Made by a program: the position numbers and the translations under genes. The notes beneath the pieces were generated by a model, which had not been told where the DNA came from, did not search any database, and saw nothing but the letters and a program-made list of their open reading frames with translations. Shown one piece after another: positions 1,417-39,164 of a DNA stretch of 43,615 bases. Source of the stretch: Myxococcales bacterium (GTDB taxonomy: Bacteria > Myxococcota_A > Polyangia > Haliangiales > Haliangiaceae); assembly GCA_016794525.1 (NCBI GenBank), contig JAEUJY010000152.1, positions 1 to 43,615 on the forward strand, in the 5' to 3' direction. The stretch's first letter is position 1. Every line of letters starts with the position of its first letter.

Positions 1417-2136
1417 ATGTGGCGCCGGTCGCTCGCCTTGATCGCGCTCGGGGCGATCGGGCTGGCCGCGGCGTGCGAGCGCGGCCGCGAGCCGCCCGCC
1501 GTCGACCGCGCGCTGATCGCGATCGCCGATCGGCCGACCTTGCGCACCGACACGATCGGCGTCGATCGCTTCGCGTCGCAGGCGACGTTCGTGCTGGCCG
1601 ACGCCAAGAACCTGGCCGACGTCGACGCCGAGGTGACGATCGGCGGCATCCTGGTCGACGCCGACGGCCGCGAGGTGGCGCCGCTGCGGCCGGAGTCGCT
1701 GCGCATCCCCGCCCACGGCCGGCGGACGTTCGCGCTGATCGATCGCGGCCGCGCCGCGCGCCCGACCGCGGTGGCGGCGCGGCTCGACGTGCGCGGCGCC
1801 CGGCAGCCGCGCTTCCCCGAGCCGGTGACGATCGGCGACGGCCACATCTACAAGGACGGCGACCGCGCCGTCGTCACCGGCATGGTCACCAACACCACCG
1901 ATCGCGCGCTGGTCGCGATCGTGCTGGCCGGCTTCCACGACGCCAGCGGCGCGCCGATGACCCGGCCGTTCGCGGCGTTCGAACTGGGCGCCGGCGCGTC
2001 GCGGCCCACCCGCTTCGTCGGCCCCGACGGCTCGCGCGCGGCCTACATCTTCCTCGGCGACGTGACCTTCTGCCCGCGCAGCGGCTGCGAGGTCACCCGC
2101 GCCGCCCCGGCGTTCCCGGCCCCGCCGCCTAATTGA
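1417..2136 (+). CDS. Putative lipoprotein, FxLYD-like
   Basis: The 239-residue product starts with a lipoprotein signal peptide, a basic MWRR followed by a hydrophobic stretch ending in LAAAC (lipid cysteine C20). The mature part looks all-beta. Its second half contains VVTGMVTNTTDRALVAIVL, which resembles the FxLYD-type domain of secreted bacterial proteins, but this is a weak match. The start is the ATG directly before the signal peptide. The longer open frame upstream overlaps the methyltransferase gene and is not credible. The last 8 bases overlap the convergent gene on the other strand. The function is unknown and the protein is probably attached to an envelope membrane. Confidence 0.7.
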   Translation: MWRRSLALIALGAIGLAAACERGREPPAVDRALIAIADRPTLRTDTIGVDRFASQATFVLADAKNLADVDAEVTIGGILVDADGREVAPLRPESLRIPAHGRRTFALIDRGRAARPTAVAARLDVRGARQPRFPEPVTIGDGHIYKDGDRAVVTGMVTNTTDRALVAIVLAGFHDASGAPMTRPFAAFELGAGASRPTRFVGPDGSRAAYIFLGDVTFCPRSGCEVTRAAPAFPAPPPN

Positions 2137-5100
2137 ACGTGGCGGTCACGGTGCGCGCCGCGGTCATCGACACCACGCACATCAGCGCCGTGCCCGAGCA
2201 GACGCCGCCGCTCCAGCCGGCGAACGTCGAGCCGGCCATCGGCGCGGCGGTGAGCGTGACCGACGTGTTGTAGACGTAGGCCTCGGTGCAGTCGGCGCCG
2301 CAGCTGATGCCCGCCGGGGTCGAGGTGACGGTGCCGCTGCCGGTGCCGGCGAGGGTCACGTCGAGCGACAGCGTCAGCGCGTTGAAGGTCGCGGTGACCG
2401 TCGTCGCCGCGGCCAGCGTCACGACGCAGGTCCCGGTGCCGCTGCAGCCGCCGCCGCTCCAGCCCGCGAACGTCGCGCCGACCGCCGGCGCCGCCGACAG
2501 CGTGATCACCGTGCCGGCGTTGTAGTCCTCGAGGCAGTCGGTGCCGCAGCTGATGCCGAGCGGCGACGAGGTGACGGTCCCCGCGCCGGTGCCGTTCTTG
2601 ACCACGTTGAGGCGGTACACCGCGAGGTTGAAGGTCGCGGTCACCGTCGCCGCGGCGCTGATCGTGACGTTGCAGGTGGGCACGGTGCCGGAGCAGCCGC
2701 CGCCGCTCCAGCCGGCGAAGACGGTGTTGGCGTCGGGCACCGCCGTCAGCGCGACCACCGTCGCCGCCTGGTAGGTCTCGGAGCAGTCGACGCCGCAGTC
2801 GATGCCCGGCGGGTTGGACGAGACGGTGCCGGTGCTCGAGCCGTTCTTGGCGACGGTCAGCAGGTACGAGTTGAGCGTGAAGTTGGCGCTGACCGACGTC
2901 GCCGCGGTGAGCGTCACGGTGCAGGGCCCGGTGCCGCTGCAGCCGCCGCCGGTCCACCCGGTGAACGTCGACGTGGCGCCGCTGAGCACGTTGAGCGTGA
3001 CCAGCGTGCCGTAGTCGAACGCGGCGGTGCAGGTCGTGCCGCAGTTGATGCCGGCGGGCGTCGAGGTGATCGTACCGGTGCCGGTGCCGGTGCGGCTGAC
3101 CGTGAGGTTGGGCCGCACCAGGTTGAAGGTCGCGGTCACCGTCGCCGCCGCCGAGCCGATCGTGACGGTGCACGCGCCGGTGCCGGTGCAGCCGCCGGCC
3201 CAGCCGGCGAACACCGCGTTGGGGCCGGGCACCGGCGTCAGCGTGACCGGCGTGGTGGCGAGGTAGACCTCGGTGCAGTCGACGCCGCAGTCGATGCCGG
3301 GCGGGTTCGACGAGACCGTCCCGGTGGCGTTGCCGCCGAGCGTGACGGTCAGCGGGTACGAGTTGAGCGTGAAGCCGGCGGTGACGCTGGCCGCCGCGGT
3401 CATCGTGACGGTGCACGGCGCGGTGCCGCTGCAGCCGCCGCCGGTCCACCCGGTGAACGTCGAGTTGGCCGCCGGCGCCGCGGTCAGCGTCACCATCGTG
3501 CCGTGATCGTAGGTGCCGGTCTGGGTGGCGCAGGTGGCGTTGCAGCTGATGCCGGTCGGCGCCGAGGTCACGGTGCCGGTGCCGTTGCCGCTCTTGGTGA
3601 CCGTGAGGCCGTAGCGGTTGAGGTTGAACGCGGCGGTGATCGTCGTCGCGGCGGCGATCGTCACCGTGCAGGTGCCGGTGCCGGTGCAGCCGGTGCTCCA
3701 GCCGGTGAACGTGGTGTTGGCGTCGGGCACCGCGGTCAGCACCACCGGCGTGGTCGCCAGGTAGCTCTCGCTGCAGTCGGCGCCGCAGTCGATGCCGGGC
3801 GGGTTGGAGCTGACGGTGCCGGTCGAGTTGCCGATCTTGGCCACGCTCAGTGTGTACGAGTTGAGCGTGAACGTCGCGGTGATCGTGGCGGCGGCGGTCA
3901 CCGTCGTCATGCACGGGCCGGTGCCGGTGCAGCCGCCGCCGCTCCAGCCGGCGAAGGTGGCGTTGGCGGCGGGCGCGGCGGTGAGCGTGACGGTGGTGCC
4001 GTGGTCGAAGCCGGCGGTCTGGGTGGCGCAGGTGGCGGTGCAGCTGATGCCGGTCGGCGCCGAGGTCACGGTGCCGGTGCCGTTGCCGGCCTTGGTCAGG
4101 GTCAGGTTGTAGCGGTTGGTCGTGAAGTTCGCGGTGACCGTGACGGCCGCGGCGATCGTCACCGAGCAGGTGCCGGTGCCCGAGCAGCCGCCGCCGCTCC
4201 AGCCGGCGAACGTGGTGTTGGCGTCGGGCACCGCGGTCAGCACCACCGGCGTGGTCGCGAGGTAGCTCTCGCTGCAGTCGACGCCGCAGTCGATGCCCGG
4301 CGGGTTCGAGGTGACGGTGCCGGTCGAGTTGCCGATCTTGGCGACGGTGAGCGTGTACGAGTTCAGCGCGAACCCGGCGCTGATCGTGCTGGCGCCGGCG
4401 ATCGTCGTCGTGCACGGGCCGGTGCCGGTGCAGCCGCCGCCGCTCCAGCCGGTGAAGGTCGAGGTGGCGCCGGCGGTCGCGGTCAGGATCACCGTCGCGC
4501 CGGTGTTGAAGTTCGCGGTGCAGGTGGCGCCGCAGTTGATGCCGGCCGGGTTCGACACGATCGTGCCGGTGCCCGAGCCGGTGCGGGTGATCGTCAGCGG
4601 GTAGGTGACCAGGTTGAAGCGCGCCTGCACCGACTTGGCGGCGTCGATCGTCAGGTTGCACAGCGCGGCGCCGGTGCAGTTGCCGCTCCAGCCGGCGAAC
4701 ACCGAGTCGGGGCCGGCGGTGGCGGTCAGCACCACCGGCGTGCCGGCCAGGTAGGTCTCGGTGCAGTCGGTGCCGCAGTCGATGCCGGCCGGCATCGAGC
4801 TGACGGTGCCCACGCCGTTGCCGGCGGTGTTCATCGCGACCGTGACCGAGTAGCTGTTGGCGGCGAACGTGGCGGTGACGGTCTGGATCGCGTCCATCGT
4901 GACCGTGCACTGGCCGGTGCCGGTGCAGCCGCCGCCGCTCCAGCCGGTGAACGTCGACGTGGTGTTGCCGACGGCGGTCAGCACGACGACCGTGCCGGCG
5001 AGGTAGTCCTCGGTGCAGTCGGTGCCGCAGTTGATGCCGGCCGGCAGCGACGTGACGGTGCCAGCGCCGGTGCCGGCCTTGACGACGGTCAGGCGGTTGC

Positions 5101-6961
5101 GCTGCACGCCGAAGGTCGCGGTGACGGTGAGGTTGTTGGAGACGGTCACGGTGCACGGGCCGGTGCCGGTGCAGCCGCCGCCGGTCCAGCCGGTGAACGC
5201 CGACGCGGGGCCGGGCACCGGCGTCAGGACGACCATCGTGCCGGTGGCGTAGTCCTCGGTGCAGTCGGCGCCGCAGGTGATGCCGCCCGGGGCCGAGGTC
5301 ACGACGCCGGCGCCGGCGCCCGCGATCGCGGTGGTCAGCGTGTACGCCGTCTGGTCGAACGTCGCGGTGACGGTGATCGCCGTGGTCATCGTGACCGTGC
5401 ACGGCGCGGTGCCGGCGCAGCCGCCGCCGCTCCAGCCGGTGAAGATCGACCCGCCGGTGGCGGCCGCGGTCAGCGTGACGGTGGCCCCGGCCGCGTACGA
5501 CTCCGAGCAGTCGGTGCCGCAGTTGATGCCGGTCGGGCTCGACGTGACGGTGCCGGTGCCGCCGCCGGCGCGCAGCACGAACAGCGTCGTCGGGGTGGTG
5601 GCGAAGTTGGCGGTGACCGTGGTCGCGGCGCCGATCGAGACGACGCACGGGCCGGTGCCGGCGCAGCCGCCGCCGCTCCAGCCGGCGAACGTCGAGCCCG
5701 GGTCGGCGACCGCGGTCAGCGCGACCAGCGACGTCGCGGGGTAGACCTCGGTGCAGTCGGCGCCGCAGTCGATGCCGGCCGGCGACGACGTCACGGTGCC
5801 GCTGCCGGCGCCGCCCTTGGCGATCGTCAGCGGGTAGCTGTTGATCGTGAAGGTCGCGGTGACCGTCGCGGCGGCGTTCATCGTCACGACGCACGGCGCG
5901 GTGCCGGTGCAGGCGCCGCTCCAGCCGGTGAACGTCGACAGGCCGGTGGGCGCGGCCGACAGCGTGACCATCGTGCCCGCGGCGTAGCTCTGGCTGCAGT
6001 CGGCGCCGCAGTTGATGCCCGACGGCAACGACGTGACGACGCCGGCGCCGGTGCCGGCGCGGGCGACGTTGAGCGGGTACTGCCGGGCGTCGAACTGCGC
6101 GTTGACCAGGATCGCGTTGTTGACGTTGACGGTGCACGGGCCGGTGCCGACGCAGCCGCCGCCGCTCCAGCCGGCGAACAGCGAGGTCGCGTCGGCGACC
6201 GCGGTCAGCGTGACCTGGGTGTTGCCGCTGTAGATCTGATCGCAGTCGGTGCCGCAGTCGATGCCGGCCGGCGTCGAGGTGACCGTGCCGGTGCCGAAGC
6301 CCGACCGGGTCACGACCAGCGTCTGATCGCGGGCGAACGCCGCGGTCAGGTTGACCGGCGCGGTCACCGTCAGCGTGCACGGGCCGGTGCCGCTGCAGCC
6401 GCCGCCGCTCCAGCCCAGGAAGCTGGAGCCGGCGGTGGTGGTCGGCGTCAGCGTGACCGTCGTGCCGTGGCGGAACGTCGAGGTGCAGGTGCCGGGGCAA
6501 TCGAGGCCGGCGGGCGCCGAGACGATCCGTCCGGCGCCGTTGCCGCCGAGCGCGATCACGACCGGGTAGGTCGCGACGTCGAAGCCGGCCATCACCGTGG
6601 TGTCGGCGCTGAGCGTGAAGGTGCACGCGCCGGTGCCGGTGCACGGCCCGCTCCAGCCGGTGAACGCCGAGTCCGAGGTCGGCGTGGCGATCAGCGCCAC
6701 CAGCGACCCCACCGGGAACGCGGCGGTGCAGGTCGCGCCGCAGTCGATGCCGGCCGGGCTCGAGCGGATGCCGCCGGTGCCGGTGCCGCCGGCGACGATC
6801 GTCAGCGTCGCGGTGGGGCCGGGGGCGTCGATCGGCGCGTCGATGCCGGCGTCGCCGGTGCGGCCGTCGATCACCGGCGCGTCGATCGTGGTGTCGGCTT
6901 CCTCGCCGCACGCGGCGACGGTGAGCGCCAGCGCGAGGGCGAGCAGGGGGCGGATGGTCAT
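2129..6961 (-). CDS. Giant lipoprotein with 19 InlB B-like repeats
   Basis: A 1610-residue surface protein. Residues 1-18 are a lipoprotein signal (LTVAAC, C18), followed by a short Asp-Ala-Pro linker and then 19 tandem repeats of about 82 residues that fill the rest. Each repeat follows the pattern GTGTVTS.P.GI.CG.DC...Y..GT.V.LTA, then F.GWSGGGC.GT.PC, then V.A.F. This matches the divergent InlB B-repeat / bacterial repeat domain family. Nearly every repeat has four cysteines, suggesting two disulfides per domain and export. Repeats 11-12 and 13-14 are near-duplicates. GGAG lies 7 bases before the ATG. It is downstream of, and 59 bases from, the TSP3 protein on the same strand, so they are probably cotranscribed. 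The likely role is a long stalk or adhesin; its partner is unknown. Confidence 0.85.
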   Translation of the reverse strand: MTIRPLLALALALTVAACGEEADTTIDAPVIDGRTGDAGIDAPIDAPGPTATLTIVAGGTGTGGIRSSPAGIDCGATCTAAFPVGSLVALIATPTSDSAFTGWSGPCTGTGACTFTLSADTTVMAGFDVATYPVVIALGGNGAGRIVSAPAGLDCPGTCTSTFRHGTTVTLTPTTTAGSSFLGWSGGGCSGTGPCTLTVTAPVNLTAAFARDQTLVVTRSGFGTGTVTSTPAGIDCGTDCDQIYSGNTQVTLTAVADATSLFAGWSGGGCVGTGPCTVNVNNAILVNAQFDARQYPLNVARAGTGAGVVTSLPSGINCGADCSQSYAAGTMVTLSAAPTGLSTFTGWSGACTGTAPCVVTMNAAATVTATFTINSYPLTIAKGGAGSGTVTSSPAGIDCGADCTEVYPATSLVALTAVADPGSTFAGWSGGGCAGTGPCVVSIGAATTVTANFATTPTTLFVLRAGGGTGTVTSSPTGINCGTDCSESYAAGATVTLTAAATGGSIFTGWSGGGCAGTAPCTVTMTTAITVTATFDQTAYTLTTAIAGAGAGVVTSAPGGITCGADCTEDYATGTMVVLTPVPGPASAFTGWTGGGCTGTGPCTVTVSNNLTVTATFGVQRNRLTVVKAGTGAGTVTSLPAGINCGTDCTEDYLAGTVVVLTAVGNTTSTFTGWSGGGCTGTGQCTVTMDAIQTVTATFAANSYSVTVAMNTAGNGVGTVSSMPAGIDCGTDCTETYLAGTPVVLTATAGPDSVFAGWSGNCTGAALCNLTIDAAKSVQARFNLVTYPLTITRTGSGTGTIVSNPAGINCGATCTANFNTGATVILTATAGATSTFTGWSGGGCTGTGPCTTTIAGASTISAGFALNSYTLTVAKIGNSTGTVTSNPPGIDCGVDCSESYLATTPVVLTAVPDANTTFAGWSGGGCSGTGTCSVTIAAAVTVTANFTTNRYNLTLTKAGNGTGTVTSAPTGISCTATCATQTAGFDHGTTVTLTAAPAANATFAGWSGGGCTGTGPCMTTVTAAATITATFTLNSYTLSVAKIGNSTGTVSSNPPGIDCGADCSESYLATTPVVLTAVPDANTTFTGWSTGCTGTGTCTVTIAAATTITAAFNLNRYGLTVTKSGNGTGTVTSAPTGISCNATCATQTGTYDHGTMVTLTAAPAANSTFTGWTGGGCSGTAPCTVTMTAAASVTAGFTLNSYPLTVTLGGNATGTVSSNPPGIDCGVDCTEVYLATTPVTLTPVPGPNAVFAGWAGGCTGTGACTVTIGSAAATVTATFNLVRPNLTVSRTGTGTGTITSTPAGINCGTTCTAAFDYGTLVTLNVLSGATSTFTGWTGGGCSGTGPCTVTLTAATSVSANFTLNSYLLTVAKNGSSTGTVSSNPPGIDCGVDCSETYQAATVVALTAVPDANTVFAGWSGGGCSGTVPTCNVTISAAATVTATFNLAVYRLNVVKNGTGAGTVTSSPLGISCGTDCLEDYNAGTVITLSAAPAVGATFAGWSGGGCSGTGTCVVTLAAATTVTATFNALTLSLDVTLAGTGSGTVTSTPAGISCGADCTEAYVYNTSVTLTAAPMAGSTFAGWSGGVCSGTALMCVVSMTAARTVTATFN

Positions 6962-7020: not shown

Positions 7021-9726
<2,706 letters not shown>

Positions 9727-9888
9727 GGCGCCTCGATCGGTGAATGGACGCGACCCCCCCCGCGCAGCATCCCCCAGGACGCGGTCGATCTCTCGGATGA
9801 TGGCGGGCCGGGCGGCCGCGCGTCAAGCCGGCCCTGACCCCACCCGATCGCGACCGCCACCCATCTCGCGCGCCCTCGCACGATCTCC

Positions 9889-9911
9889 GAGGGGCTTTGC
9901 GAAAGACCCTC
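9889..9911 (-). terminator. 3'-end GAGGG hairpin, copy 1
   Basis: In the sense of the minus-strand PEGA gene, a hairpin GAGGGTCTTT / CGC / AAAGCCCCTC starts 7 bases after the stop codon, with one mismatch in the stem. It has no T-run after it. The same element follows the kinase gene, the tRNA and rpoZ. The rest of 9727-9918 shows nothing else recognisable. Confidence 0.65.
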
Positions 9912-9918
9912 TCAAGTC

Positions 9919-11208
9919 TCAGAACCGGAAGACGACGGTCCCGCAGGACTGACCGGTCGGACACGTGATCGGCGCCGGCCCGTCGGTGATCTTCATCACG
10001 ACCGGCACGGCGATCCCGGCGGCCACGACCGTGCCCACGCCGGCCCAGAACCACCAGCGGGTGACGATCGACGGCCCGCGCGGCCCGGCCGGCTTGCGCT
10101 TCTTGGGCTTGACCACGACCTTCGCGGCCGCGACCTGGCGGTACAGCTCGACCGCGGCGGTCGCGAACGCCTCCTCGAGCTCGCGGTCGCCGACCTTCAC
10201 GTCGGTGGCCCCGAGGCGGGCGCCGCCATCGACCGCGTAGGCGTACAGCCGGTACTGGCCCTCGCCCGGCTGCACGTCGACGATGACCACCTGCTCGACG
10301 CCGAGCAGGTCGCCCATCGTGGCCAGCCCGGCCTGGGCCTGGGCCTTGGCGATCGGATCGCCGACGCCGTCCTCGAGCAGCTCGGCGCCCTGCGCCAGGT
10401 CGGCGGCGCCGGTCGATGGCTCGAGCACCGCCGCCAGCGACGCCGGGGCCTTGGCCGACACCTTGACCGGCTCGACCCGGCGCACCGAGCCAGCGCGGCG
10501 CAGCGTGACGTAGTGGGTGCCCTCGGCGAGGCCGTCGACGGTCGTCGGGGTGAACCCGACCATGCGGCCGTCGACGTACGCCAGCGCGCCGGCCGGCGAG
10601 GTCGCGATCTCGATCGACCCCTGCGGCAGCTTCTTGGCCTGGCCCTGGGCCTTCTCCCACAGCGGCAGCACGACCGTCGGCTCGAGGTCGGGATCCGGCA
10701 GCTGCTCGGGGCGCCAGGCCAGCAGGCCGACGAACGTCGCGACCGCGGCCTTGCTGTCGCCGGCGATCGCCTGCGCGGTGCCGAGGTAGAGCTGCGCGCG
10801 GGCCAGGTCTTGCTTCTGGGTCCAGGCCAGCACCGTCGCGAGCTGCGTCGTCGCGCCCTGCAGCTTGAGGATGGCCGGCTTGGCCTGGCCGCGGCGCAGC
10901 ATGGCCTCGCCGGTGGTGAGCAGCGCCCGGGCCTCGCCGACCGCGTCCTCGGGGATCGCCTTCGAGCGCGCCGCCAGCCGATCGTCTTGATCGAGCACCG
11001 CGAGGCGGCGGTCGCGGCGCAGCGCGCGCTCCATCGACACCGCGACCGTGGCCTTGCGCGCCGCGCCGAGCTTGACGCCCTCGGCGGCGGTGACGACCAC
11101 CGCCAGCTCGACCTCCGGCTTGCCCGCGACCTGCGCGTCGCCGTCGTCGGCGCGGGCCGTCGGCGCCGCGACCAGCGCGGCGATCGCCACGATCGCGGCC
11201 AGCTTCAC
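9919..11208 (-). CDS. PEGA-domain membrane protein
   Basis: A 429-residue protein with a cleavable-looking signal peptide (ending TARADD), an alpha-helical region (about 85-190, resembling a TPR), and a PEGA domain around 195-255 (SPAGALAYVDGRMVGFTP). A mixed region follows, then a transmembrane helix at about 383-406 (WWFWAGVGTVVAAG) after a basic KPKKRKP stretch, and a short tail. PEGA proteins are common in Myxococcota, and this one resembles the extracytoplasmic half of the Ser/Thr kinase at 15724. Its start overlaps the stop of the small upstream gene by 4 bases, so translation is coupled. The function is unknown; envelope sensing or scaffolding is an inference. Confidence 0.75.
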   Translation of the reverse strand: MKLAAIVAIAALVAAPTARADDGDAQVAGKPEVELAVVVTAAEGVKLGAARKATVAVSMERALRRDRRLAVLDQDDRLAARSKAIPEDAVGEARALLTTGEAMLRRGQAKPAILKLQGATTQLATVLAWTQKQDLARAQLYLGTAQAIAGDSKAAVATFVGLLAWRPEQLPDPDLEPTVVLPLWEKAQGQAKKLPQGSIEIATSPAGALAYVDGRMVGFTPTTVDGLAEGTHYVTLRRAGSVRRVEPVKVSAKAPASLAAVLEPSTGAADLAQGAELLEDGVGDPIAKAQAQAGLATMGDLLGVEQVVIVDVQPGEGQYRLYAYAVDGGARLGATDVKVGDRELEEAFATAAVELYRQVAAAKVVVKPKKRKPAGPRGPSIVTRWWFWAGVGTVVAAGIAVPVVMKITDGPAPITCPTGQSCGTVVFRF

Positions 11209-11528
11209 TCGCTGCCTCCGACGTCGGCCGCGCCGAGATCGCGCGCCAGGCCGGCCAGGTACGGATCGGACGCCAGCGCGTCGGCCAGGAGCGCCCGCAG
11301 CTCGGCGGCCTCGTCGGGGGGCAGCCCGGCCACGGCGTCGTCGACCAGCTGGGCCAGCGCCGCGTCGGGCGGGAGCTGGCCGGCGTCGAGCGCGGCGGCC
11401 AGGGCGGCCGCGCGATCGGCGGGCGCGGCGTCGCCGGCGGTGGTGGGGCCGGTCAGCGCGTCCGGATCGTCGGGGCCGCTGGGGCCGCCGGGACCGGTGG
11501 GGCCACCGGGACGCTGGATGCTGGTCAT
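11205..11528 (-). CDS. Small Gly-Pro-rich hypothetical protein
   Basis: A 107-residue protein with a collagen-like N-terminal stretch (GGPTGPGGPSGPDDP, residues 8-22) and an acidic, alanine-rich helical C-terminal half. There is no signal peptide or membrane segment. The ATG has CGGAG 8 bases upstream. The stop codon overlaps the start of the PEGA gene (ATGA). I do not recognise a family. Its tight coupling suggests that it acts with the PEGA protein, possibly from the cytoplasmic side. Confidence 0.65.
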   Translation of the reverse strand: MTSIQRPGGPTGPGGPSGPDDPDALTGPTTAGDAAPADRAAALAAALDAGQLPPDAALAQLVDDAVAGLPPDEAAELRALLADALASDPYLAGLARDLGAADVGGSE

Positions 11529-11725
11529 CGGCGGCTCCGCACGGTGGACGCCTCAGACGATACTCGATGGGCCAGGCAAATTCGACCTCTGGGCACGGTG
11601 ACCTCGGCTTTCATGCAAGGCCTATCGACCACCCGGCGCCGCGGTTGCGTACGACCTGCGGCGCGCGCCGCGATTCGCGACCGCGTGGGTCGCGTGGGGG
11701 GCCGCCGCGCGGCATGCTGGCCGAC
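11529..11725. other. Divergent intergenic region
   Basis: 197 bases separate the minus-strand PEGA operon from the plus-strand lipoprotein gene. It must hold promoters for both. A locally AT-richer patch (GCAAATTCGACC, 11575-11586) is the only compositional feature I see. No convincing -35/-10 pair was found. Confidence 0.4.
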
Positions 11726-13207
11726 ATGTCGCGTCGCGCGCTCGCGTTCATCTTCGTGCTGGTGGCGGCCTGCGGGCCCAAGGGCGCGCGCGGCCCCGGC
11801 GGCGCGCCCGGCGAGTACCCCGCGCTCGGGTTCGTCGCCGCCGACGCCGCCTACGTCGTCACCGCGACCCGGGTCGGCGACGCGGTGGCCGTGCTCGACG
11901 ACCTCGCCGACGCGCTGGGCATGCTCGACGCCACCGACGCCCAGGCGGTCGGCCAGGACCTGGCCCGCGAGTTCGGCTTCGATCCGCTGTCGCTCGACAG
12001 CGTCGTCGCGCAGGGGATCGACCCCGGCCGCGGGATCGCGCTGTGGGGGCGCGGCGATCTCGGGCCGACGCTGGCGCTGCCGATCGCCGATCCGGCGCCG
12101 ATCGCCGCGCGCATCGACGCCTACCGGCAGAGCGGCGCGGTGGTGCAGGTGGGCCGGATCGCCGGGCGCGAGGTGTCGACCTGGCGGCCCGATCGCGAGG
12201 TCGCGGTCCACTGGAGCTTCGTCGACGACTGGCTGCTGGTCCACGTCGAGTTCGCGGCGGCGCACGAGCCGGCCGAGGCGTGGCTGACCCAGGCCCTGGC
12301 CGCGCGCGGGGCCTTCGCCGGGACGCCGGACTTCGCCGCGGCGCGGGCGGCGGCGGTCGCGCAGCTCGGTGCGCCGCCGGCGGTGCTGGCGGTCGCGCAG
12401 ATGCCGGCGATCCTGGCCTCGCGGCTGTGGCGCGAGGCCGGCGGCTGCGCCCACCCGCTGACCCAGCTGGGCCGGGTGACGCTGGCCGCGACCACCGACG
12501 GCGCCGTGGCCCGGGGCGCGCTGGTGCTCGAGGTGCCGGGCGGCCTCGACGCGGTGCGCGCGATGCAGTTCGGGGCGCCGGCCGGCTGGGCCGCGGCCCG
12601 GGGCGCGCCGCCGCTGGCGGTCGAGGTCGGCGTCGACCTGCGGCCGGTCCAGGCGGCGCTGGCGCCGTGCTTCGGCGACGATCTGACCCACCAGCCGATC
12701 GGCGCCGGCGTGTTCGGCGGGCGCGGCTTCGCCTACCAGCTCGACCTCGACGACCGCGAGGTGCGCGCCGCGTTCGCGGGCCGGGTCGACCCCCGGGTCG
12801 TGGCCGAGGCCGTCGACGAGATCCCGGGCTTCGACTTCCTCAAGCGCGGCCGCACCGTGGCCGGCCGCGCGGTCACCGAGGTCGACGTGCCGATGATCCC
12901 GACCTTGGCCTTCACCCAGGCCGGCGAGGAGCTGATCGGCGCGGTCGGCATGGCGATCGACCCGATCCTGACCGGCGCCACCGATCCCGGCACCGAGCGG
13001 GTCCCCGCCGAGCTCGGCCGCTTCGAGGTGCGTCCGCTGGCGTGGACCGCGGCGCAGTGGGACGCGCTCCTCGCCGACGTCATCACCCGCGACCGGGCGC
13101 GGGCCCGGACGATCGCCAGCCTGCGCCGGTGGCAGCTCGGCCTGATCGAGGCCCACACCGAAGATCGCGCGATCGTCGTCACCGCCCGCGGCGAGCGCGC
13201 GCGATAG
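11726..13207 (+). CDS. Hypothetical lipoprotein
   Basis: A 493-residue protein with a lipoprotein signal peptide (MSRRALAFIFVLVAAC, C16). The mature protein is a large alpha/beta domain without a motif I can assign. Features include LGFVAADAAYVVTATR near the N-terminus and a repeated pattern of hydrophobic strands, and it resembles proteins annotated as hypothetical in Myxococcota. An in-frame ATG at 11714 adds MLAD, but the start at 11726 gives a clean signal peptide. Fifty-four bases separate it from the ABC transporter genes on the same strand, so it may be part of that operon. Confidence 0.7.
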   Translation: MSRRALAFIFVLVAACGPKGARGPGGAPGEYPALGFVAADAAYVVTATRVGDAVAVLDDLADALGMLDATDAQAVGQDLAREFGFDPLSLDSVVAQGIDPGRGIALWGRGDLGPTLALPIADPAPIAARIDAYRQSGAVVQVGRIAGREVSTWRPDREVAVHWSFVDDWLLVHVEFAAAHEPAEAWLTQALAARGAFAGTPDFAAARAAAVAQLGAPPAVLAVAQMPAILASRLWREAGGCAHPLTQLGRVTLAATTDGAVARGALVLEVPGGLDAVRAMQFGAPAGWAAARGAPPLAVEVGVDLRPVQAALAPCFGDDLTHQPIGAGVFGGRGFAYQLDLDDREVRAAFAGRVDPRVVAEAVDEIPGFDFLKRGRTVAGRAVTEVDVPMIPTLAFTQAGEELIGAVGMAIDPILTGATDPGTERVPAELGRFEVRPLAWTAAQWDALLADVITRDRARARTIASLRRWQLGLIEAHTEDRAIVVTARGERAR

Positions 13208-34486: not shown

Positions 34487-34729
34487 ATGAGCCAACCACG
34501 CGATCGGCTGCGCGCGGCGTTCCGCACCGCGCTCGGGCTGGCCGGCGACGCCGCCGTCGACGACCTCGCCTACCGGGCGGTGCCGCAGTGGGACTCGGTG
34601 GCCCACATGCAGCTGGTGGCGACCATCGAGGCCGAGTTCGACATCATGCTCGACACCGACGACGTGATCGCGATGTCGAGCTTCGCGGTGGCGTGTACGA
34701 TCGTCGGCAAGCATGGCGTGGCGATCTGA
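34487..34729 (+). CDS. Dedicated acyl carrier protein
   Basis: 80 residues, the normal size of a free ACP. The phosphopantetheine serine is S37 in the motif WDSVAHMQLV, followed by the helix-II/III pattern ATIEAEFDIMLDTDDV. It is the carrier on which an acyl group is likely built, reduced or handed over. It is the first gene of a five-gene operon and overlaps the reductase gene by 17 bases. It is not the housekeeping fatty-acid ACP, since no fab genes surround it. Confidence 0.88.
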   Translation: MSQPRDRLRAAFRTALGLAGDAAVDDLAYRAVPQWDSVAHMQLVATIEAEFDIMLDTDDVIAMSSFAVACTIVGKHGVAI

Positions 34730-35480
34730 GCCTCCGCTCCTGGCCGGCCGCGCCGCGCTGGTCACCGGCTCGTCGCGCGGCATCGGCGAGGCGATCGCGC
34801 GCGCGCTGGCCGCCCACGGCGCCGACGTCGCGCTGCACGGCCTGCACGATCCCGAGGCGCTGACCGCGCAGGCGGCGGCGCTGGCCGCCGAGTTCGGCGT
34901 GCGCACGCTGGCGCTGGTCGGCGACGTCGCCGATCCGGCCGCGGTGAAGGGCTGGTTCCAGACGCTGTTCGCGCAGTGGAAGCGCCTCGACGTGCTGGTC
35001 AACAACGCCGGGGTCATGGAGGGCGCGCTGCTCGGCATGGCGACGCCGGCGATGATCGATCGGGTGATCGACGTCAACACCAAGGGCGCGATCCACGTGC
35101 TGCAGGCCGGCGCGCGGCTGATGACCCGCCACCACCGCGGCAGCATCATCAACGTCACGTCGATCCTCGGCACCCAGGGCGGCGCTGGCCAGGCGGTCTA
35201 CGCCGCCAGCAAGGCCGCGCTGCTCGGCCTGACCTGGTCGGCGGCCAAGGAGCTGGCGCCCCAGGGCGTGCGGGTCAACGCGATCGCGCCCGGCTACATC
35301 GACACCGACCTGGTGCGGGCGCTGCCGCCGGCGGTGCAGGCCGAGCGCGCCGCCGCGATCGCGATGGGCCGGGTCGGCACGCCCGCCGACGTCGCCGGCG
35401 TGGCGCTGTTCCTGGCCTCGGATCTGGCGGCCTACGTCACCGGCCAGGTGATCGGCTGCGACGGCGGGCTGCGGGCGTGA
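34713..35480 (+). CDS. SDR-family oxidoreductase, FabG-like
   Basis: 255 residues. NAD(P)-binding TGSSRGIG (18-25), NNAG (97-100), catalytic S150, Y163 and K167 (YAASK), and the end YVTGQVIGCDGGL are standard for 3-oxoacyl-ACP reductase-type SDRs. With the neighbouring ACP it probably reduces a beta-keto or similar acyl-ACP. The stop overlaps the GTG of the ligase gene (GTGA). Confidence 0.9.
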   Translation: MAWRSEPPLLAGRAALVTGSSRGIGEAIARALAAHGADVALHGLHDPEALTAQAAALAAEFGVRTLALVGDVADPAAVKGWFQTLFAQWKRLDVLVNNAGVMEGALLGMATPAMIDRVIDVNTKGAIHVLQAGARLMTRHHRGSIINVTSILGTQGGAGQAVYAASKAALLGLTWSAAKELAPQGVRVNAIAPGYIDTDLVRALPPAVQAERAAAIAMGRVGTPADVAGVALFLASDLAAYVTGQVIGCDGGLRA

Positions 35481-36838
35481 GCGCGGCCGCGCTGCTGGCG
35501 GGCGCCGACGACGCGGTGGCGCTGATCGACGCGCGCGACGATCGCGCGATCACCTACGCCGCGCTGCGCGCCGAGGTGGCGGCGGCGGGCGCGGCGCTGG
35601 CGGCGGCGGCCGGGCCCGGCGGGCTGGCGTTCGTCTTCGCCGGCAACGACGTGGCGTCGATCGTCGACGTGCTGGCCGCGCTGCACGCCGGCGTGCCGGT
35701 GGCGCTGTTCGATCGCCGGCTGGCCGACGATCTCGCGCAGGCGCTGGTCGCGGCGTACCGGCCCGAGGTGATCCGCGGTCGCGCGCTGGCGGCGCCGGGC
35801 GGCGGCGCGCCGGCGCACCCCGACCTCGCGCTCCTGCTGTCGACGTCGGGCTCGACCGGCAGCCACAAGCTGGTGCGGCTGAGCGGCGGCGCGGTCGTCG
35901 CCAACGCGACGGCGATCGCCGCGGCGCTCGGGATCGGGCCCGGCGAGGTCGCGCCGACCAGCCTGCCCATCCACTACTCGTACGGATGGTCGGTGGTGGC
36001 CAGCCACCTGGCCGCCGGCGCCACCGTGCTGGTCACCGACGACGGCCTGGTCGGCGACGGCTTCTGGGCCGCGTGCCGCCGCCACCGCGTGACGTCGCTC
36101 GCCGGCGTGCCATACAGCTACCAGATGCTCGCGCGGCTCGACCTCGACAAGCTGGCGCCGCCGTCGCTGACCACGCTGACCCAGGCGGGCGGCGCGCTGG
36201 CGCCGGCGCTGATCGAGCGCTTCCACCGCGTCGCCGTCGCGCGCGGCGGCCGGCTGTTCGTGATGTACGGCCAGACCGAGGCCTGCGCGCGCATCGCGGT
36301 GCTGCCGCCGGCCGAGCTGCCGGCGCGGGTGGGCTCGGTCGGGCGCGCGGTGCCGGGCAGCGCGCTGCGGGTCGAGGTCGACGGCCGCGCCGCCGCGCCC
36401 GACGAGGTCGGCGACGTCGTCTTCACCGGCCCCAGCGTGATGATGGGCTACGCGACCGCGCGCGCCGATCTCGCCCGCGGCGACGAGCTGGGCGGCGTGC
36501 TGGCCACCGGCGATCGCGGCCGCGTCGACGCCGACGGCTTCCTGTGGCTGGCCGGCCGGGCCGCGCGGTTCGCGAAGCTGTTCGGCGTGCGGGTCAACCT
36601 CGACGAGCTCGAGGCGCTGGCGGCGGCGGCGCTGCCGGCCGGCGCGGCGGTGGCGGCGGTGCCGGCCGGCGAGCGCATCCGGCTGTGCGTCGAGGGCGCG
36701 GTCGACGCCGCGGCGCTGCGCGCGCACCTGGCCGCGCGCACCGGCCTGCACGGCTCGGGCTTCGTGGTCGAGGCGATCGCCGCGCTGCCGCGGCTGCCCA
36801 GCGGCAAGCCCGACTACCGTACCCTCGAGGCGCCATGA
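35477..36838 (+). CDS. AMP-dependent acyl-ligase
   Basis: 453 residues, an ANL-superfamily adenylating enzyme. The P-loop is STSGSTGSHK (122-131), the motif MYGQTEA is at 263-269, TGDRG at 344-348, and the catalytic lysine K444 is in LPSGKPDY. It should activate a carboxylic acid as acyl-AMP and pass it to CoA or to the phosphopantetheine of the ACP encoded two genes earlier. Somewhat shorter than usual acyl-CoA ligases. The GTG start and ATGA stop overlaps with both neighbours show tight coupling. Confidence 0.88.
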   Translation: MSAAALLAGADDAVALIDARDDRAITYAALRAEVAAAGAALAAAAGPGGLAFVFAGNDVASIVDVLAALHAGVPVALFDRRLADDLAQALVAAYRPEVIRGRALAAPGGGAPAHPDLALLLSTSGSTGSHKLVRLSGGAVVANATAIAAALGIGPGEVAPTSLPIHYSYGWSVVASHLAAGATVLVTDDGLVGDGFWAACRRHRVTSLAGVPYSYQMLARLDLDKLAPPSLTTLTQAGGALAPALIERFHRVAVARGGRLFVMYGQTEACARIAVLPPAELPARVGSVGRAVPGSALRVEVDGRAAAPDEVGDVVFTGPSVMMGYATARADLARGDELGGVLATGDRGRVDADGFLWLAGRAARFAKLFGVRVNLDELEALAAAALPAGAAVAAVPAGERIRLCVEGAVDAAALRAHLAARTGLHGSGFVVEAIAALPRLPSGKPDYRTLEAP

Positions 36839-37938
36839 GCGACGACCTCGACCTCGCCGCGCGCATCGACGCCGTGATCGAGGCGCCGCTGTACGCGCAG
36901 CCGCAGGCCGACAAGGCCGCGCGGTTGATCCCGGTGCTCGACGCGCTGACCCGCCACCACCGCGCCGCGTGCCCGGCCTACAAGCGGCTGACCGACGTGC
37001 TCGGCCCCGGCGACCGCCGCGCCGACGCGCTGGCCGCGGTGCCGTGGCTGCCGGTCGGGCTGTGGAAGAGCCACCGGCTGGTGTCGGTGCCCGACGACCA
37101 GGTGACGACCACGCTGACCTCGAGCGGCACCACCGGCCAGGTGCCGAGCCGGATCTACCTCGATCGCGACACCGCGCGTCGCCAGGCCCGCGGGCTGGCG
37201 CGGATCATGACCCACGTGCTCGGCCCCAAGCGGATCCCGATGCTGGTGATCGATCACGCCGCGGTGCTGTCCGATCGCACGTCGTTCTCGGCGCGCGGCG
37301 CCGGCGTGCTGGGGATGATGACGTTCGGCGCCCAGCCCAAGTTCGCGCTCGACGCCGAGCTGCGGCTCGATCGCGCCGTCGTCGACGAGTTCCTGGCCCG
37401 CCACGGCGGCGCGCCGTTCCTGCTGTTCGGCTTCACGTACATGGTGTGGGCCTACTTCTACGAGCAGGTGAAGGCGGCCGGCCTCGACCTGCGCCACGGC
37501 ACGCTGATCCACTCCGGCGGCTGGAAGAAGCTGGTCGAGCGCCAGGTCGACAACGCGACGTTCAAGGCCGGGCTGGCCGCCGCCACCGGCCTGGCCCACG
37601 TCCACAACTTCTACGGCATGGTCGAGCAGGTCGGCTCGGTGTTCCTCGAGGGCGACGACGGCCTCCTGTACCCGCCGGCGTTCGCCGACGTGATCATCCG
37701 CGATCCGCTGACGCTGGCGCCGGTGCCGACCGGCACGCCGGGCGTGATCCAGTGCCTGAGCGCGCTGCCGACCAGCTACCCCGGCCACTCGATCCTCACC
37801 GAGGACCTCGGCGTGATCGAGCGCGTCGACGGCGGCCCCGGCGATCGCCATGGCAACGCGCTGCGCATCCTCGGCCGGTTGCCGCGCGCCGAGCTGCGCG
37901 GCTGCAGCGACACCCACGCCGCCGAGGTGATGCGATGA
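36835..37938 (+). CDS. LuxE-type acyl-protein synthetase
   Basis: 367 residues matching the LuxE family: TSSGTTG (95-101), HSGGWKKL (227-234), YGMVEQVGS (260-268), and a C-terminal RGCSD with C357 near the end, in the place of the acyl-accepting cysteine of bioluminescent LuxE. In Lux systems LuxE activates fatty acid as acyl-AMP and passes the acyl group by its cysteine to the reductase LuxC. Here it lies directly before the luxC-like gene (4-base overlap). No luciferase (luxAB) or thioesterase (luxD) is present. Confidence 0.87.
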   Translation: MSDDLDLAARIDAVIEAPLYAQPQADKAARLIPVLDALTRHHRAACPAYKRLTDVLGPGDRRADALAAVPWLPVGLWKSHRLVSVPDDQVTTTLTSSGTTGQVPSRIYLDRDTARRQARGLARIMTHVLGPKRIPMLVIDHAAVLSDRTSFSARGAGVLGMMTFGAQPKFALDAELRLDRAVVDEFLARHGGAPFLLFGFTYMVWAYFYEQVKAAGLDLRHGTLIHSGGWKKLVERQVDNATFKAGLAAATGLAHVHNFYGMVEQVGSVFLEGDDGLLYPPAFADVIIRDPLTLAPVPTGTPGVIQCLSALPTSYPGHSILTEDLGVIERVDGGPGDRHGNALRILGRLPRAELRGCSDTHAAEVMR

Positions 37939-39164
37939 AGGTGCTGTGCCGGGTGCCGGCGCGCGGCGAGGTCGACCTCGACGAGCTGCTGGCCGGGCTG
38001 ACCGCGGCGCCGCCGGGCCAGCCCCACGCCGAGGACGTGCTCGAGCTGTGCCACCAGTTCTCGACCCGGCTGATGGCCGACCCGGTGGCGCGGGTCCACC
38101 CCGAGCTGATGACGCTGGGCTTCTTCATGCGCAAGGCCGAGCTGGCGCGCATGCGGCGCGAGCTCGAGGCGCTGGCCCGCCCCGACGTCGTCCAGGTGCC
38201 GGCCGGGCTGGTGTTCCACGTGCCGCCCGGCAACGTCGACACGATCTTCATGTACTCGTGGCTGCTGTCGGTGCTGGCCGGCAACACCAACCTGGTGCGG
38301 CTGTCGAGCCGGGCCTCGCCGGTGGTCGATCACCTGTGCGCGCTGCTCGACGAGCTGCTGGCGCGGCCGGGGCTGGCCGACGCGCGGGCGCGGGTCGCGA
38401 TGATCCAGTACGGCCACGACGACGCGATCACCGCCGCGTGCTCGGCGCAGGCCGCGGTGCGCATCATCTGGGGCGGCGACGCCACCGTGGCCGCGGTGCG
38501 GCGCGCGCCGCTGCCGCCGTTCGGGCGCGACCTCACCTTCGCCGATCGCTGGTCGCTGCTGGCGCTCGCCGCGGACGGCGTGGCCGAGCTCGACGACGCC
38601 GGCCTGACCCGGCTGGCCGAGCAGCTGCACAACGACATCTACTGGTTCGATCAGGGCGCGTGCTCGTCGCCGCGGCTGTGCCTGTGGGTCGGCACCGCCG
38701 CCGAGGTCGCCGAGGTGCGCGATCGGCTGTGGACCGCGGTCGCGGCGGTCGCCACCGCGCGCGGCCACCGGCCCGAGATGGCGGTGCGGATGGCCCGCGA
38801 GCTGTTCGCGCACCAGGCGGTGCTCGACGGGCCGGTCGTCGGCCGCGCCGACTTCGGGCCCGGCCTGACCGTGCTGCGGGTCGATCGGCTCGACGGCCTG
38901 GCCCGCGCGCACCCCGGCGGCGGCCTGCTGTTCGAGGCGGTCGCGCCGTCGCTGGCCAGCCTCGATCGCTGGATCTCGCGCCGCGATCAGACGCTCACCC
39001 ACTTCGGCTTCGCGCGCCACGAGCTGATCGAGCTGGCGCAGCGGCTGGCCGGCCGCGGCATCGACCGGCTGGTGCCGGTGGGCCAGGCGCTGGCGCTGGC
39101 GCGGTTCTGGGACGGCTACGACCTGATGGCGCAGCTGGTGCGCAACGTCCACGTCGTCGTCTAG
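37935..39164 (+). CDS. LuxC-type acyl reductase
   Basis: 409 residues of the LuxC family (aldehyde-dehydrogenase fold). Motifs: HVPPGNVDTIF (95-105), LAGNTNLVRLSSR (114-126), IIWGGD (177-182) and the nucleophile C243 in FDQGACSSP. LuxC reduces an acyl thioester with NADPH to an aldehyde, accepting the acyl group from LuxE. It is the last gene of the operon and is slightly shorter than luminous LuxC (about 480). With ACP, ketoreductase and ligase upstream, the product is probably an aldehyde or alcohol other than the tetradecanal of luminescence. Confidence 0.88.
   Translation: MKVLCRVPARGEVDLDELLAGLTAAPPGQPHAEDVLELCHQFSTRLMADPVARVHPELMTLGFFMRKAELARMRRELEALARPDVVQVPAGLVFHVPPGNVDTIFMYSWLLSVLAGNTNLVRLSSRASPVVDHLCALLDELLARPGLADARARVAMIQYGHDDAITAACSAQAAVRIIWGGDATVAAVRRAPLPPFGRDLTFADRWSLLALAADGVAELDDAGLTRLAEQLHNDIYWFDQGACSSPRLCLWVGTAAEVAEVRDRLWTAVAAVATARGHRPEMAVRMARELFAHQAVLDGPVVGRADFGPGLTVLRVDRLDGLARAHPGGGLLFEAVAPSLASLDRWISRRDQTLTHFGFARHELIELAQRLAGRGIDRLVPVGQALALARFWDGYDLMAQLVRNVHVVV

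Follow-up and report, generated by a model that had tools for sequence, protein, structure and literature searches.

What does an operon make when it joins a LuxE/LuxC acid-reductase pair to its own acyl carrier protein (ACP), a short-chain dehydrogenase/reductase (SDR) and an AMP-forming ligase, with no luciferase genes among them? The operon lies in a window, the whole stretch of DNA analysed here, that is one entire contig (C89, 43,615 bases) of a 9.8 Mb genome in 177 contigs. Five complete genes occupy positions 34487-39164 of one strand in the order ACP-SDR-ligase-LuxE-LuxC, with successive overlaps of 17, 4, 4 and 4 bases, and these coordinates agree exactly with an earlier, sequence-only reading of the locus:

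34487..34729, + strand: dedicated acyl carrier protein, 80 aa, with the phosphopantetheine Ser37 in DSVAH
34713..35480, + strand: short-chain dehydrogenase/reductase of 255 aa, FabG-like, which would reduce a semialdehyde (Pfam adh_short_C2 PF13561, 2.5e-66)
35477..36838, + strand: AMP-forming ligase of 453 aa, starting with GTG, which would load a hydroxy acid onto the ACP (Pfam AMP-binding PF00501, 2.4e-39)
36835..37938, + strand: LuxE-family acyl-protein synthetase, 367 aa, with Cys357 (Pfam PF04443, 9.6e-55)
37935..39164, + strand: LuxC-family acyl reductase, 409 aa, with Cys243 (Pfam PF05893, 3.3e-25)

Family comparison placed the SDR nearest to FabG families, and the window LuxE aligned with the LuxE of PDB entry 7xc6, its cysteine matched; the LuxC sequence had no match in the PDB. 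No Pfam model matched the ACP, which had one weak NCBIfam ACP match. This protein is small and divergent, yet it retains its serine. A sigma-70-type promoter had also been placed in front of the operon, which our scan did not support: no site ahead of the operon reached 9/12, and the promoter-like site before the ATG, TTGACC-17-TACCTT, scored 8/12, with 3/6 in the second hexamer.

Scanning one genome per species with a pattern built from four sequences, we found at least 572 LuxE relatives. Among the best 80 of these, the exact ACP-SDR-ligase-LuxE-LuxC order was kept in 70 of 80 loci, far beyond chance, with cassettes in Actinomycetota, Pseudomonadota, Acidobacteriota, Myxococcota and other phyla. 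The other 10 loci showed contig-end cuts, a swap or a loss. This five-gene block, annotated as fatty-acid or luminescence genes, is present in hundreds of genomes, and the search for its order and flanks, which the sequence-only reading had proposed, returned amino-sugar and acyltransferase genes alongside it. In the filled alignment columns of homologous cassettes, the catalytic residues are invariant: ACP S37 (74/74), SDR S150 (73/73), Y163 (74/74) and K167 (74/74), ligase K444 (81/81), LuxE C357 (84/84) and LuxC C243 (81/81). All the key residues first named from the window are thus present and kept across homologues, and loss of the active-site cysteines, set out beforehand as grounds for giving up that reading, was not seen.

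The window LuxE and LuxC are not luminescence proteins. None of luxA, luxB and luxD was seen among the genes of the window, as had been noted before. The LuxD family, PF02273, had no match in the window genome, and control genomes gave no match either. This genome has only one strong LuxC, the second place scoring 24.5 bits. The NCBIfam equivalog models for the luminous proteins were missed widely (63.9 bits against a cut-off of 550 for LuxE, 20.6 bits against 750 for LuxC), so the two are members of these families rather than luminescence proteins. Identity of the window LuxE to luminous-type loci is 28-29%, and a tree separated glycan-type from luminous LuxE with 100/100 support and a long-branch warning; there, the window LuxE groups with a Myxococcota record. 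LuxE proteins of SDR-type cassettes, and of a variant with an iron alcohol dehydrogenase (Fe-ADH), share the polar residues R154, H226, Q265 and H318, at which luminous LuxE differ (two to four luminous sequences). LuxC R176 and D182 differ likewise, R176 being Ile in luminous LuxC (again two to four luminous sequences). Judged from the alignment, these polar residues would fit a small polar substrate. The earlier view of LuxE and LuxC as a pair that reduces acids outside luminescence, served by a dedicated ACP, SDR and ligase, was right.

We examined 84 cassette contexts, calling genes by codon usage and then clustering those within nine genes of the cassette. A DegT/DnrJ/EryC1 sugar aminotransferase lay near the cassette in 56/84 contexts, hexapeptide acyltransferases in 46/84, a GnnA-like dehydrogenase together with DegT in 27/84 and pse genes in 22/84; an LpxA-like acyltransferase stood immediately before the ACP in 23/84. 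Linkage to amino-sugar, acyltransferase or glycosyltransferase genes was found in 73 of the 84, and the families identified among the neighbours were PseB, PseC, PseG, PseI, UDP-GlcNAc 3-dehydrogenase, LpxA and NeuD/VioB. Actinobacterial cassettes have two main settings, one with pse genes and one with a GnnA-like UDP-GlcNAc 3-dehydrogenase, an aminotransferase and an LpxA-like acyl-ACP acyltransferase. Other loci carry a NeuD/PglD/VioB sugar acyltransferase, and a Deinococcus plasmid has the five genes in a single run that also includes glycosyltransferases and a sugar transferase before them and an acetyltransferase after them. What recurs is a trio of functions: making an amine, making an acyl-ACP, and transferring the acyl group to a sugar. 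The comparative evidence points to a glycan substituent, which was one of several products suggested at the outset. We conclude that the operon probably (about 0.6) builds a short hydroxyacyl thioester on the ACP it encodes, for N-acylation of an amino sugar in a surface or flagellar glycan.

We recognised no glycan gene anywhere on the 43.6 kb window contig, which would suit a self-contained pathway to a signal or lipid that has nothing to do with glycans in this organism. We regard such a pathway as highly doubtful, given the glycan-related linkage in most contexts and the sugar genes that accompany orthologous cassettes within the same family. In the same-family genome G011, the cassette lies within a sugar cluster, next to genes for a methyltransferase and for the transaminase of dTDP-4-amino-4,6-dideoxygalactose (Fuc4N) as well as heptose genes, several of these names coming from our reading of the sequences. 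In the same-genus genome G006, ACP-SDR-ligase is followed on one contig by a PglD/NeuD sugar acyltransferase, and LuxE-LuxC lies on another contig; retention of both halves suggests that the five genes act together and are more than neighbours. Two further genomes of the genus, G002 and G003, have the order ligase-ACP-Fe-ADH-LuxE-LuxC, with the Fe-ADH replacing the SDR. Of eight family genomes searched, close ACP homologues occurred only in the three that have SDR-type cassettes. All five LuxE genomes of the family have RffA (12/30, p 0.006) and PseI (17/30, p 0.04), both associations being confounded by kinship. The flanks of the window cassette are not syntenic in G006: their counterparts there sit on unrelated contigs, and the location of the cassette is therefore uninformative about its partners. 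The window feature is a known cassette in an unlinked position, and we do not file it as a glycan island.

Elsewhere in the window genome, contig C137 encodes PseB, PseC, PseG, PseI, a Maf-type MptE-like protein and flagellin. Contig C41 encodes RmlA-like and RmlB-like proteins and a Fuc4N transaminase orthologous to that of the G011 cluster. Clear DegT-family genes number only three in this genome, and a search of it for a NeuD-type acyltransferase gave a weak partial match only. A divergent ORF in L157 (8048-8857), presumably RffC-like by its motif, matched nothing in Pfam or NCBIfam. The glycan served in the window organism would be pseudaminic acid or dTDP-Fuc4N.

The operon itself is not new: it is a published kind of block in flagellin-glycosylation islands. 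Among 98 Aeromonas strains with Group II polar-flagellin islands, genes for an acyl carrier protein, a 3-oxoacyl-ACP reductase, an AMP-dependent synthetase, luxE and luxC lie among the pse genes (PMC7874193), and acp, fabG, caiC, luxE and luxC occur in flagellin islands of about 70 Enterobacteriaceae strains (PMC4875605). Occurrence of these genes in a known cluster of relatives had been named in advance as counting against the sequence-only reading; the flagellin and surface-glycan islands do remove its novelty, and its account of the enzymes stands. We found no published enzyme assay or functional proof for the cassette in the literature and no luxE or luxC mutant in the papers we consulted; the lux genes of A. 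piscicola AH-3 fell outside the published deletion (PMC7874193). The cassette genes also go unmentioned in a paper on an Actinoplanes exopolysaccharide.

In the cassette-bearing strain AH-3, the linking sugar is a pseudaminic-acid derivative of 376.14 Da and the glycan ends in a 102 Da moiety. We computed 376.148 for a pseudaminic diamine residue plus acetyl plus C4H6O3, and 102.032 for C4H6O3. Both observed masses fit a dihydroxybutyryl group, as a mass match and not a proof; the isomeric O-methylglyceroyl group and two lactyl groups fit too. When the glycan beyond the 376 Da sugar is lost, the 102 Da unit goes with it and that sugar remains, so there may be no relation between them. A. hydrophila AH-1, for which a single Pse-type sugar and no glycosyltransferase genes between the pse genes are described, bears a 403 Da group.

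The authors of both island surveys propose a "liposugar component" (PMC7874193, PMC4875605). On that proposal the cassette would make a long-chain fatty aldehyde, alcohol or acyl group for a lipo-sugar, as the homology to Lux proteins and the LpxA-like acyltransferase before the ACP in 23 loci might suggest. However, the operon contains neither a condensing enzyme nor a LuxD that could provide free fatty acid, hydrophobic residues have given way to polar ones in LuxE and LuxC, the Aeromonas glycan masses include no long acyl chain, and the Fe-ADH variant matches a C4 precedent, the tetronate pathway discussed below. A long-chain product is therefore unlikely.

For a short hydroxyacyl product, we propose the following route. 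LuxE would adenylate a small dicarboxylic acid, similar to succinate or malate, at one of its carboxyls and hold the acyl group of the resulting acyl-AMP on Cys357. LuxC would take it on Cys243 and reduce it with NAD(P)H to a semialdehyde, which the SDR would convert to a hydroxy acid (4-hydroxy- or dihydroxybutyrate-like). The AMP-ligase would then activate the remaining carboxyl and load Ser37 of the ACP, and a sugar N-acyltransferase encoded elsewhere would move the acyl group to the amine that a DegT-family aminotransferase supplies. The substrate and the order of steps are our inference. The two adenylating enzymes, at first attributed to two different acids, are better explained by the two carboxyls of one diacid.

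A different order was proposed originally, in which an acid is loaded on the ACP, its beta-ketone is reduced by the SDR, and LuxE/LuxC then receive the acyl-ACP and turn it into an aldehyde or alcohol end product. The SDR is indeed FabG-like and adjoins the ACP, so it may yet act on beta-ketoacyl-ACP, but the operon has no ketosynthase to make a beta-ketoacyl group and LuxE activates free acids. R129 and R172 of the SDR, which we take to be the FabG docking arginines and hence a test for an ACP-bound substrate, vary among cassette SDRs (R at 172 in 13/75), which is weak evidence against this order. Fe-ADHs act on small aldehydes, and the form that replaces the SDR in same-genus cassettes thus supports a semialdehyde-reductase step. 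Because Fe-ADHs reduce aldehydes and not beta-ketoacyl-ACP, the earlier order is probably wrong, and we consider an aldehyde or alcohol end product reached in this way quite unlikely. The aldehyde could instead be a building block that adds carbon chain to a branched or extended sugar, for instance by acting as the acceptor of a transketolase, and transketolase halves do adjoin the cassette in Rhizobium anhuiense and in G112 (the latter by our own reading of the sequence). However, transketolase is not among the recurrent neighbours of the clustered contexts and is absent from the window, and a building-block role leaves the ligase-ACP pair unexplained, making it the least probable of the alternatives.

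A more general form of our preferred reading, the short hydroxyacyl-ACP route, is tentative. The cassette may be a general bacterial route from dicarboxylates to omega-hydroxy or dihydroxy C4 acyl-ACP that caps pseudaminic acid and other amino sugars, which would explain the 376 and 102 Da masses of Aeromonas flagellin; in the window genome it would serve the distant pse flagellar island or a Fuc4N glycan in trans. The pathway itself, from dicarboxylate through hydroxyacyl-ACP to N-acyl amino sugar, would, if it holds, give LuxE/LuxC a function in non-luminous bacteria, and its genes would mark unusual acyl groups on flagellins, O-antigens and actinobacterial cell-wall glycans.

Among known systems, the luxCDABE fatty-acid reductase (LuxC/LuxE/LuxD) has in common with the window cassette the LuxE and LuxC families with their catalytic cysteines, whereas no LuxA, LuxB or LuxD was seen in the window and its LuxE falls in a separate clade. 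The Aeromonas Group II block, orf1-orf2-orf3-luxE-luxC, has the same five activities in the same order inside pse islands (PMC7874193). There, the block adjoins pse genes and the glycosyltransferase fgi-1; the window cassette, in contrast, is unlinked, and the pse island of its genome is on a different contig. The enterobacterial gene set is that of the window, described there only as fatty-acid synthesis with a possible liposugar (PMC4875605).

In V. cholerae O1, perosamine is N-acylated with 3-deoxy-L-glycero-tetronate; tetronate synthesis is assigned to VC0248-0252, with a demonstrated need for WbeL, and a LuxE domain is present in RfbN (PMC3441752, PMC4772473). The rfbK-O genes (VC0248-VC0252) thus place a LuxE-domain protein in a pathway to a C4 dihydroxy acid that N-acylates an amino sugar. 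Of the parts expected for a pathway of this type, the window has LuxE/LuxC, a ligase and an ACP. We take rfbK, rfbL, rfbM and rfbO to encode the ACP, ligase, Fe-ADH and acyltransferase, respectively. The window differs in that no acyltransferase adjoins the cassette and its reductase is an SDR, where the tetronate pathway presumably has the Fe-ADH RfbM, the form of reductase also found in the two same-genus relatives, G002 and G003.

Lux-like sets are present in two genomes of the window's class, G072 (locus L038, contig C226:61000-80000, at 7154-11864) and G107 (locus L004). Besides LuxC and LuxE, the set includes an acyl transferase of the LuxD family and a monooxygenase that resembles luciferase and matches Pfam Bac_luciferase (7.7e-65); it adjoins genes that read as putative sugar aminotransferases. 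The class possibly contains luminescence genes.

A variant cassette in G112 (locus L033, contig C504) has two SDRs and lies between a NeuD-like acyltransferase gene upstream and split transketolase genes downstream; a Rhizobium anhuiense plasmid (L143) likewise has transketolase halves adjoining its LuxE/LuxC genes. This variant may yield a chain-extended product.

The window's own genome carries, on another contig, a flagellin glycosylation island of the pseudaminic-acid type, next to flagellin and hook genes:

L155 (G000:C137:43000-62000), PseB, PseC, PseG, PseI, Maf-like

Elsewhere in the window are two repeat proteins:

2129-6961 (-), 1610-aa secreted-looking repeat protein
7021-9726 (-), 901-aa Asp-rich repeat protein

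The former has many ~75-residue repeats with paired cysteines (DCG..C...GWSGGGC.GTGPC); the terminal tail of the latter, which includes GC and is hydrophobic and rich in arginine, resembles a MYXO-CTERM sorting signal.

Two same-genus genomes encode a ligase-ACP-Fe-ADH-LuxE-LuxC cassette:

L035, 12485-16458, first genome
L036, 4232-9515, second genome

These cassettes closely parallel the tetronate genes of V. cholerae.
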